Shown: positions 2,355 to 39,683 of the stretch, one piece after another
How positions within the stretch are numbered: position 1 is the first letter of the stretch
Layout: each line of letters opens with the position of its first letter
From: Oscillospiraceae bacterium
GTDB lineage: Bacteria > Bacillota > Clostridia > Lachnospirales > Lachnospiraceae
Assembly: GCA_021771715.1 (NCBI GenBank)
Contig: JAETOO010000006.1
Coordinates: 1 to 64,000, forward strand
Length of the DNA: 64,000 bases
Direction: 5' to 3'
Position numbers and translations under genes: made by a program
Notes under the pieces: model-generated
The model's input: only the letters and a program-made list of their open reading frames with translations
The model's database searches: none
Told to the model about the DNA's origin: nothing

Positions 2355-3016
2355 ATGCAGGCACCGACAGATAGCCGGCAGACGGCTATATCCGTCCCTT
2401 CCGCTTCCCAATACGAGGATGCCGCTATGAAAATGGTTTTGCAGTTTTTTGCCGACGAACTGCTTCCCTTTTTCGGCATCAAGGAAAGGGCCGTCCGAAT
2501 CGTTCCCACCGAACTGATTCATATGGAAATCCGGAAATTTTATCAGGATTTCAATTTGGAAATGGAGGATGGGTCCTGGGCGCATTTCGAATTTCAGAGC
2601 ACAAATGAGGGCCTGAAAGGGCTGAAACGCTTCCGCTCCTATGAGGCGCTCGCAAGCTATCAGCACAATGTCGCCATCAAGACCGGATCAAAACTGCTTA
2701 CGAAATCACACAAAATGCAGACTCCGTTTCTGCAGAGGATCTTAAAAAAATTGAGGCGGTGATTTACGCTATGGCAGAAAAATTTTTGGACTCCATCAGT
2801 ATGGAAGAAATCAAGGAGAACATGAAAATGACCAGAATGGGACAGATGCTTGTAAATGACGGATTTAAGGCTGGCATTGAAAAAGCAAAACTTGACAATG
2901 CGAAAAGCCTGATTGGCCTTTTAGATGAGCAGGTAATCGCTGAACGTATCGGATTATCGCTCGAGACCGTGCAAAAGTTGAAGACTCAGCTGGCCTCCGC
3001 AAATACGGATCAATAA
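2355..3016 (+). pseudogene. degraded Rpn/PD-(D/E)XK-type nuclease (transposase-like), internal deletion and frameshift
   Basis: The first part (frame of 2355, ends near 2700) reads like the N-terminus of Rpn-family recombination-promoting nucleases: an acidic nuclease core with EMEDGSWAHFEFQS and a FRSYEALASYQ segment. The second part is in another frame and reads AYEITQNADSVSAEDLKKIE before the annotated-looking start at 2759, then the usual C-terminus with LLDEQVIAERIGLSLETVQK. Intact family members are about 300 residues, so the middle is missing. The join without a stop in the second frame shows a deletion plus frameshift near 2695-2705. It is probably not functional, although a perfect promoter remains upstream. 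Confidence 0.72.
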
Positions 3017-3170
3017 TTGGGCCAGATGACTATCTTGCAAGATACACGTTCTCCACAGATCTGGGGGATTTGGCAAATCAAATCCCCCGGGTCTATTTGC
3101 AAGTTTGCAACGCCTCATCCGACTTTATCGTTATTCCGTCTTCCAATGCACAGTACCTTTTTCTACATTC

Positions 3171-14712: not shown

Positions 14713-14912
14713 TTACTGCGAAAGTAAGCCAAGTGAGCATAGCTGAGACGTGCTTGCACGAGAGCAGATATGAACATTAGGGACACCCCGGCATGAGCAA
14801 GTAAACCGATCGGTCGGATTGCGAATATCGGGGGCGATTGCAGGAGTGCGAAACACGGAGCAATCGACTTCCATGCGTAGTGGTACCTGCGAAGCAGGCA
14901 AGTAAGTTTAAC
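14713..14912 (-). other. structured intergenic sequence without a convincing gene
   Basis: About 200 bp between the amidase and the GH42 terminator hold several short hairpins (for example TACCTGCGAAGCAGG) and the related direct repeats GCGAAAGTAAGCC and GGCAAGTAAGTTT near its ends. A 62-codon frame on the minus strand has no ribosome site. Its composition differs from the flanking genes. It may be a small RNA or a dispersed repeat. Confidence 0.35.
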
Positions 14913-28265: not shown

Positions 28266-28450
28266 CTCATCTCTCCTCCCGAAAACCCTTTCTGCTATAT
28301 GGGAACTTTCTCCGCTCCATATGAACTCCACCCGCTATATCGAAGTTCGTTTCACCAATCGGCCTCATCCAGTTGCATAAACTATAACGCATCAGGCAAT
28401 CCCTGGCAATTCCATTTTCTCCTTCCCGTCTGTGATCACAGTTCTGCTAG

Positions 28451-28708
28451 CCACAGTCAGAGAAGATCACAGGGCCGTACGGTAGCGACTGTAGCGAGTC
28501 TTTACAAATTCTTGGGCCTTGGGATACCGGAGCAGCTGTAAAAATCCTGCCCTCCTGCAGGATTTTTAGCCGGCACTGTCTGAGCCTCATGTGCATCCGG
28601 CACATGGGGCGAGTTGCCCGCGGCAGCTGCACAGGTATTCCAAGGCCCTAGAATTTGTAGACGAGCGATTCGGAGCTACCGTACGGCCCTGTGATCTTCT
28701 CGTCCGCG
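28451..28708 (+). ncRNA. candidate structured RNA or palindromic element R3, copy 1
   Basis: The 258-bp element recurs at 39426-39683 with identical length. Its outer stem is a perfect 26-bp inverted repeat (28461-28486 with 28675-28700). Inside lie a second 26-bp stem (28503-28528 with 28634-28659, one T-T mismatch), a hairpin AAAAATCCTG / CAGGATTTTT and a hairpin ATGTGC-ATCCG-GCACAT. The two copies differ by many paired, compensating changes. It could be a structured RNA or a MITE-like mobile element; strand is not certain. Confidence 0.7.
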
Positions 28709-28761: not shown

Positions 28762-28791
28762 TTGACAGCCTCCACGCCCTGCATTTATAAT
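28762..28791 (+). promoter_or_regulatory. promoter of sufCB
   Basis: TTGACA, an 18-base spacer and TATAAT lie 62 bp before the sufC start. A small GGCAGG / CCTGCC hairpin sits between the promoter and the ribosome site. Confidence 0.75.
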
Positions 28792-39184: not shown

Positions 39185-39246
39185 CGTCGTATGCCCTCCT
39201 GATTCCGTGTGTCGTTCTCTACTGCTTCCCCATAAAAAAATAAGTG

Positions 39247-39352
39247 CAGACTCAAGAAAATGCTTCGCATTTTTCCTGTTGAAATACAGACTCGAAAAAA
39301 TGCTTTGCATTTTTCCTCGTTGAAATATGAGAAGCTGCGCTTCTCATATTTC
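39247..39352 (-). repeat. hairpin-repeat 5' leader of the aldo/keto reductase mRNA
   Basis: On the transcribed strand the leader starts with a 14-bp hairpin with a 3-base loop (arms GAAATATGAGAAGC and GCTTCTCATATTTC, 39322-39352) and then two ~39-bp units containing GAAAAATGC and GCATTTTTTC stems and ending in GAGTCTG. The same arrangement with seven units is found at 43995-44283. Confidence 0.8.
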
Positions 39353-39425: not shown

Positions 39426-39683
39426 CCACAGCCAGAGAAGATTGCAGGGCCGTGCGGTAGGGACTGTAGCGAGTCTTTACAAGATCTTAGGCCCCAGGAT
39501 ACCGGAGCTGCTGTAAAAATCCTGACTTCTGGCAGGATTTTTAGCGGGCACTGTCTGAGAAAAATGTGCATCCGGCACATTTTTCGAGTTGCCCGCGGCA
39601 GCTGCGCAGGTATCCTGGGGCCTTAGATCTTGTAGACGAACGATTTGGAGCTGCCACACGGCCCTGCAATCTTCTCGTCCGCG
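39426..39683 (+). ncRNA. candidate structured RNA or palindromic element R3, copy 2
   Basis: Same length and layout as copy 1 at 28451-28708. Outer stem 39436-39461 with 39650-39675, second stem 39478-39503 with 39610-39635, inner hairpins AAAAATCCTG / CAGGATTTTT and GAAAAATGTGC / GCACATTTTTC. Base differences from copy 1 are largely matched on the opposite arm. It lies between the end of glgB and the aldo/keto reductase promoter. Confidence 0.7.

Follow-up and report, generated by a model that had tools for sequence, protein, structure and literature searches.

The window, the whole stretch of 64,000 nucleotides analysed here, is part of a Lachnospiraceae genome (G000) of 4,182,792 bases in 54 contigs. 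It contains two copies of an element of 258 nt with seven helices, which the preliminary description had placed at 28451-28708 and 39426-39683 and which were both confirmed when the window sequence was checked. The two copies and their surroundings comprise the following features.

28434 to 28450, + strand: decayed remnant of the left terminal repeat before copy 1 (consensus GTTACAGTTCAGCCAG; similarity by eye)
28451 to 28708, + strand: four-stem element, copy 1 (window sequence, fold, genome DNA search, 33-copy alignment)
28460 to 28486, + strand: outer stem of copy 1, 5' arm (alignment A2, columns 4-30)
28494 to 28528, + strand: second stem of copy 1, 5' arm, with the unpaired T of the T-T mismatch at 28513
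28540 to 28567, + strand: apical hairpin 1 of copy 1, an A-tract, GC stem and T-tract, terminator-like by eye
28584 to 28610, + strand: apical hairpin 2 of copy 1, with a CATC motif in the loop
28634 to 28666, + strand: second stem of copy 1, 3' arm, with the partner T at 28649
28675 to 28701, + strand: outer stem of copy 1, 3' arm (alignment A2, columns 221-247)
28762 to 28791, + strand: sigma-70 promoter matching the consensus at 12/12 positions, between copy 1 and the ABC-transporter/SufBD-domain genes
39426 to 39683, + strand: four-stem element, copy 2 (window sequence, fold, genome DNA search, 33-copy alignment)
39435 to 39461, + strand: outer stem of copy 2, 5' arm (alignment)
39515 to 39542, + strand: apical hairpin 1 of copy 2 (alignment)
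39650 to 39676, + strand: outer stem of copy 2, 3' arm (alignment)

The outer stem of copy 1 is a perfect inverted repeat, as had been described, with an uninterrupted length of 27 bp instead of the 26 bp first reported. The T-T mismatch of the second stem (28513 / 28649), described as conserved between the two copies, is kept more widely, being T·T in all 33 full or near-full copies of the genome and, across five genomes, in 50 of the 53 copies aligned. Since the sigma-70 promoter is downstream of copy 1, this copy lies outside the leader of the ABC-transporter/SufBD-domain genes. Directly before copy 2, the region 39240-39350 is hairpin-rich and contains, by eye, two close variants of AAAATGCTTYGCATTTTTCC plus a third palindrome. 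Elsewhere, a Clostridiales-1 RNA (RF01699) was matched at 14719-14873 of the window (+ strand, 88.3 bits) and at 2969-3098 of locus L012 (- strand, 79.6 bits).

A DNA search of the genome with copy 1 as the query revealed that the two copies first described are members of a set of approximately 40, which comprises 33 full or near-full copies, six cut at contig ends and one internally deleted. The 33 copies (copy 1 counted) occur on both strands, and the other 32 are 76-88% identical to copy 1; two of them, L019 and L025, are without the 5' outer arm, which is replaced, yet are counted among the 33. Alignment of the flanks placed the copies in unrelated surroundings. Better-preserved copies run outward into a terminal inverted repeat, GTTACAGTTCAGCCA... 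on the left and ...TGGCTGAACTGTAAC on the right, and many four-stem copies have decayed ends. In four of the 33 copies (L003, L026, L031 and L032) the first part of the element (at most ~68 nt) is duplicated directly upstream of the full copy, and in L026 and L031 this duplication stops near GAGTCTTTACAAG, where the second stem starts (by eye). Several contigs of G000 and of another carrier genome, G250, start or stop within elements, as in the six cut copies of G000, and several TTGCTGTTTAG ends lie less than 400 bp from a contig start in G250. Short-read assemblies therefore probably undercount the copies.

Folded with a few flanking bases, copy 1 forms a long rod with two apical hairpins (-166.6 kcal/mol, z = -14.2) and copy 2 forms the same rod (-158.7 kcal/mol, z = -14.4); none of 200 shuffles of either copy folded as well as the real sequence. 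The paired changes noticed between the two copies proved to be real in the 33-copy alignment, where 56 of 96 base pairs show both-sided change. Paired cells amount to 97.9% in the 33 copies, compared with 38-43% when partners are slid, and shuffled partners were paired at a mean of 87.1%, with 0/500 reaching any of the five observed measures. Within the outer stem, 22 of 28 pairs carry paired changes in the G000 copies, and the outer-stem counts of the 33-copy covariation, strand and conservation tests include L019 and L025 with their replaced 5' arm. RNAalifold applied to 53 copies from five genomes gave 64 pairs, 56 of them with both-sided change, on an alignment that leans towards the model; alignments A4 and A5 were fitted to the covariance model. 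Identity is 93% in the internal loops, 85% in inner pairs, 73.5% in outer pairs, 71% in apical loops and 56% in the terminal-repeat region, beyond which the flanks of the G000 copies are at the random level of 27%. The CATC motif is present in 50/53 aligned copies and in 18/21 longer aligned matches, compared with 42% of shuffled cores. The four-stem interior is a structure conserved by covariation.

The earlier statement that the element matches no known RNA family holds for Rfam 15, in which nothing within the element attained the gathering score, and no Rfam match to OMEGA or HEARO RNAs was found in it. As the only match with a low E-value, the Dictyoglomi-1 RNA (RF01703) aligned with copy 1 over its full length (E = 0.017 in a 301-base search), scoring 20 bits against a cut-off of 150. 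This identity was rejected since the match is absent on copy 2 and on locus L108 and has mostly low posterior values; it was taken as a coincidental similarity between two long rods. No description of the element was found in literature searches, which covered mostly papers available without subscription.

The genes beside the element are unrelated at the nine loci examined (RecA-, HrcA-, FtsH- and RsmG-like, among others; translations read by eye), and the orientation of the copies to their neighbours is mixed. A riboswitch or leader as the general role was rejected on both grounds and because copy 1 stands upstream of a perfect promoter. By a simple choice of open reading frames, 12 of the 33 copies lie between divergent genes and three between convergent genes; the 12 would receive no read-through from outside, which counts against RNA. 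Apical hairpin 1 in G000 has the shape of an intrinsic terminator (by eye), a feature that is odd within an RNA, and a scan of one G250 unit gave no sigma-70 promoter. The resemblance of hairpin 1 to a bidirectional intrinsic terminator in G000, along with the 12:3 distribution between divergent and convergent genes, would fit a cis-acting insulator or regulator, by which inserted copies terminate or modulate the transcription of neighbours. However, a terminator scan called none around copy 1, the scan of the G250 unit called a single terminator-like site, on the opposite strand, where chance alone would give 1.4, and the right-hand G250 modules have no T-tract on the + strand (by eye). Such a role is very unlikely, since the genes downstream of copy 1 have their promoter beyond this copy, and since both the covariation of the four stems and the paired arrangement of modules in other genomes (below) would be left unexplained.

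Terminal repeats, target duplications and empty sites show the element to be dispersed and mobile. The GTTACAGTTCAGCCA-type terminal repeat has 234 sites at no more than two mismatches in G000, compared with 65 for the reversed control, and these ends bound four-stem copies and their collapsed derivatives L072, L073, L075 and L083 (by eye). Target duplications were sought in 21 elements with both ends recognisable, from 29 loci tried. Agreement between the flanks peaks at length 8, at 68.5%, against 26-36% at lengths 3-7 and 9-12, and at least six of the eight flank positions match in 12 of the 21 elements, compared with 1% of 2000 partners from different elements. Four full four-stem copies in this set match at 8, 6, 5 and 1 of the 8 positions, and the derivatives at 8/8 (L072), 7/8 (L073), 8/8 (L075) and 8/8 (L083). 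Empty orthologous sites were found for (i) L024 compared with G302, where the intergenic alignment is poor, (ii) copy 1 of the window compared with G302, where 437 bp before the downstream gene are without a match, and (iii) one G345 pair compared with a short gap in G344. No insertion site was common to relatives among 8 G345 and 18 G344 loci, or among 18 G302 and 42 G000 loci (some overlapping). The preliminary description had reserved the name MITE for the case of clear target duplications with hundreds of near-identical copies, of which the duplications were found, whereas the copies number approximately 40 and are divergent.

Two further observations concern the ends and sites of insertion. 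Loci L066-L105 of G000 hold a large set of other palindromic elements with the same GTTACAGTTCAGCCA ends (by eye), and the other forms with these ends include nested palindromes round GCATGGCGTCC, short GGACTTTGCA...TGCAAAGTCC elements and a 30-bp minimum (by eye). In the locus pairs L164/L217, L200/L193 and L201/L190, elements of relatives lie near the same gene in different gaps, through chance or regional preference.

The search of Lachnospiraceae with a covariance model, proposed earlier as a check, recovered the rod and its two apical hairpins from a small number of other genomes. Model R1, which represents the element core and was built from the G000 copies alone, matched loci of UBA7160 (G302), S36M_St_33 (G202), S36M_St_66 (G344) and S36M_St_44 (G345), the names of G302 and G202 being deduced from identical stretches; the S36M lineages were found at ~1e-25 to 1e-30 (rough E-values). 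Within the genus, a DNA search located the element in 2/47 genomes, G000 included. Model R2, built from the five-genome lineages, had matches in 6/397 family genomes (G000, G202, G250, G046, G408 and G424), in a search that drew a sample and from whose matches the carrier G302 is absent. Of these, G250, G046 with G408, and G424 represent three more genera, and the loci of these four genomes are strongly diverged in sequence yet fold into a rod of similar type, in most cases tipped by two apical hairpins. A sample of 391 genomes drawn from across the class gave G000 itself as the only match; the family and class searches both scored few candidates per genome under stricter filters. A distant DNA search using copy 1 gave no match in plasmids or phages, and a pattern search gave none in viral contigs.

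In several of these genomes the modules are paired. Close pairs, taken as modules with a second module within ~650 bp, are divergent in 18/18 cases from five genomes (G345, G344, G250, G046 and G408), with the 5' ends together and the 3' ends at the outer edges; a partial module occurs in the G408 pair, in one pair of G344 and in two of G250. In G345, the 16 modules found all belong to eight divergent pairs with ~180-380 bp between core matches, and each pair consists of two different subtypes (told apart by eye). G344 has two divergent pairs, one with the partial second module, and 16 of the 19 modules matched in it are without a partner among the matches, some by contig ends or gaps. Six pairs occur in G250, where other regions have one module, and one divergent pair was found in each of G046 and G408; only single modules were seen in G000 and G302. 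The G250 units with both ends TTGCTGTTTAG (at most one mismatch) include five of 639-859 bp and one of 281 bp, and six aligned G250 loci have a common spacer. No target duplication was visible in the six bounded G250 units, so the pair form may move differently. The single module of G424 lies within another inverted repeat, and the modules of G250, G046 and G408 start with GGAGCC at the 5' foot. The core fold thus occurs within at least three kinds of ends.

Whether the fold acts on one strand can be read from the mismatches tolerated in its stems. If the element had a role as double-stranded DNA alone, equal frequencies would be expected, given that each G·T corresponds to an A·C on the complementary strand. 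Mismatch states were mapped on copy trees (FastTree, midpoint root, parsimony), leaving out one pair per alignment in which G·U is the majority. Among inner-stem states common to at least two copies, the G000 tree gave 10 origins of G·U and none of A·C, and the corresponding counts for the S36M lineages (G344/G345) were 14 and 0; other mismatches in these shared states numbered 0 in G000 and 4 in G344/G345. Terminal branches of the inner stems gave G·U:A·C ratios of 27:19 (G000) and 28:18 (G344/G345), a pooled excess of 55:37 that is not significant (p = 0.08), and the comparison of 24:0 shared with 55:37 terminal gave a Fisher p of 4e-5. With another root the shared ratios were 11:0 (G000) and 12:0 (G344/G345), and with L019 and L025 left out they were 10:0 to 11:0 in G000. 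Raw cell counts in G000 were 109 G·U against 37 A·C, with 29 of the G·U from a single pair. The shared states of the outer stem in G000 (1 G·U, 2 A·C, 2 other) carry no strand signal, and without L019 and L025 (0 G·U, 0 A·C, 1 other) they are uninformative on strand. Wobbles that are shared as G·U and never as A·C indicate selection for the fold of one strand, an asymmetry not to be had from a symmetric DNA palindrome. The folded + strand of the inner stems thus appears to be under selection on lineages that go on copying, and inserted copies appear to drift.

Paired changes may also arise without selection through template switching, in which one arm of a quasi-palindrome serves as the template for the other. 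This process could contribute to the outer stem, with its many paired changes and no strand signal, but as an account of the whole element it is improbable in the extreme, since it would be expected to be strand-symmetric, against 24:0 in the inner stems, and since the unpaired internal loops are more conserved than the inner pairs. The same conservation of the internal loops, the most conserved part of the element, together with the T-T mismatch kept across five genomes and the presence of one core within several kinds of ends, is what a host-useful structured RNA might display if it were active at many loci and dispersed by mobile ends by chance. We regard this as quite unlikely. The occurrence of the element is very patchy, no insertion site is common to the related genomes compared, the neighbour genes at the loci examined are unrelated, and the changes on terminal branches look near-neutral.

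The preliminary description had left a choice between a palindromic mobile element and a large structured RNA. The findings point to a combination of the two, a dispersed element with a strand-specific selected fold that is putatively an RNA. The folded strand might alternatively be single-stranded DNA, as in REPINs and elements of the IS200/IS605 type, with an HUH (Y1) transposase recognising the hairpin of one strand and the divergent pairs representing giant analogues of inverted REP doublets. Folded DNA tolerates G·T as well, so the strand bias fits this explanation, and so do the inversion of all 18 close pairs and the lack of a visible target duplication in the six G250 units. GGAG is also a foot of REPs, and the GGAGCC foot of the G250, G046 and G408 modules resembles the GTAG/GGAG foot. 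In the passages available of the source articles, compensatory changes are described for REPIN hairpins too (PMC3116915), the foot of REPs is given as GTAG and their size as 20-40 bp, compared with ~250 for the modules (PMC3733652).

The distribution of Y1 genes bears on this explanation directly. A Y1 transposase was matched in 8/9 carrier genomes, but not in G345, a draft genome with 16 modules, and the element was beside the Y1 gene in 0/14 Y1 loci from eight carriers, within the stretch read. Relative to the local base skew, the + strand is positive in 15/33 copies and negative in 18/33, without bias. An HUH/Y1 mobiliser is disfavoured by the lack of a match in G345, by the lack of linkage to the element in the loci read and by the absence of a skew bias. 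In addition, the single form has 8-bp target duplications, which are not expected from HUH transposition. Folded single-stranded DNA is consequently considered unlikely, though a serious candidate.

Candidates for a mobiliser of another kind were also sought. No transposase-bearing element with the same ends was found in the loci read of these draft genomes. IS66 elements produce 8-bp duplications and have GTAA-like ends. As the mobiliser, IS66 (PF03050) gained no support, with a single match below the cut-off in G000 and none in G302. GTTACRGTTCAGCC is present in 29/299 Lachnospiraceae genomes and its reversed control in 5, and no autonomous element with GTTACRGTTCAGCC ends was seen, the loci read containing short elements only. 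Locus L226 has a 1.2-kb interval with similar ends that encodes a LacI-type regulator (read from the translation) and no transposase. The TTGCTGTTTAG ends of G250 occur at 30 sites, with 0 inward-facing pairs of 1-3 kb.

On balance, we consider it somewhat more likely than not that the element is mobile and non-autonomous and that it needs the fold of its + strand, probably formed by RNA, in order to spread. It would be a short mobile repeat without coding capacity that occurs in some Lachnospiraceae and relies for its movement on enzymes encoded elsewhere and acting in trans. For the single form, an enzyme acting in trans, presumably a DDE-type transposase, would cut at the terminal repeats and leave the 8-bp duplications. 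The interior, expressed or exposed as the + strand, would fold as a ~250-nt four-stem rod, and the folded strand may promote spread, for instance through recruitment of the enzyme or of some host factor. The lineages that spread would be those in which the fold is preserved, and each copy would drift once inserted. RNA is favoured over single-stranded DNA by the 8-bp duplications, the even skew (15:18), the lack of a Y1 match in G345 and the absence of the element beside the 14 Y1 loci, a combination that is not decisive. A more specific proposal, which is unlikely and put forward tentatively, is that small mobile elements of a new, RNA-dependent class are involved. Such an element would consist of two structured RNAs of ~250 nt, arranged divergently so that their 3' ends point out towards the two junctions, and their folding would be required for copying or re-insertion by a protein in trans. 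The RNA module could be lent to different transposon ends.

The element is of interest for its branched fold, which is under selection on a single strand, persists across several genera and sits within different transposon ends. If the selected strand is RNA, a non-coding RNA would be used by a protein-less DNA element, and a possible dependence of small transposons on structured RNA could be tested directly. With many copies per genome, the comparison of internal and terminal branches also provides a natural data set in which selection on spreading lineages can be separated from decay after insertion.

Several known systems share part of these properties. The Dictyoglomi-1 RNA has a long rod in common with the element and differs in a score far below its cut-off, obtained on copy 1 only. 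The pneumococcal BOX, RUP and SPRITE repeats (PMC3049150) are likewise dispersed, strongly folded Firmicute repeats thought to be mobile, and in the available text of that article BOX is built from boxA, boxB and boxC modules. They differ from the element in the modularity of BOX and in their taxa, and are set apart by description, not sequence; the terms 'compensatory' and 'covar' are absent from the main text of the article. REPINs, in the available passages of PMC3116915 and PMC3733652, are extragenic inverted doublets of foldable palindromes, with heterodimers possible and with compensatory changes. The element somewhat resembles REPINs and REP doublets with RAYT in its compensatory changes and in the inverted doublets that part of the carriers have, some of them alongside single modules. 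Unlike these simple palindromes of 20-40 bp, it has ~250 nt per module, a single form with target duplications and a branched rod with conserved internal loops, and no linked RAYT/Y1 gene was found beside it.

Bacterial MITEs, according to the portions available of PMC10969869, are short and non-coding, have terminal inverted repeats and target duplications, possess no transposase of their own and give transcripts predicted to form stable stem-loops. The element is similarly short, non-coding and dispersed, and terminal inverted repeats, target-site duplication and presence or absence at orthologous sites were all found for it. It is filed here as a MITE with a conserved single-strand fold. 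In contrast to the MITEs of that account, it has a strand-specific four-stem interior with conserved internal loops and compensatory change across genera, and it occurs also in divergent pairs and within several kinds of ends. MITEs are usually seen as passive ends with filler between them, whereas here the filler is the conserved part.
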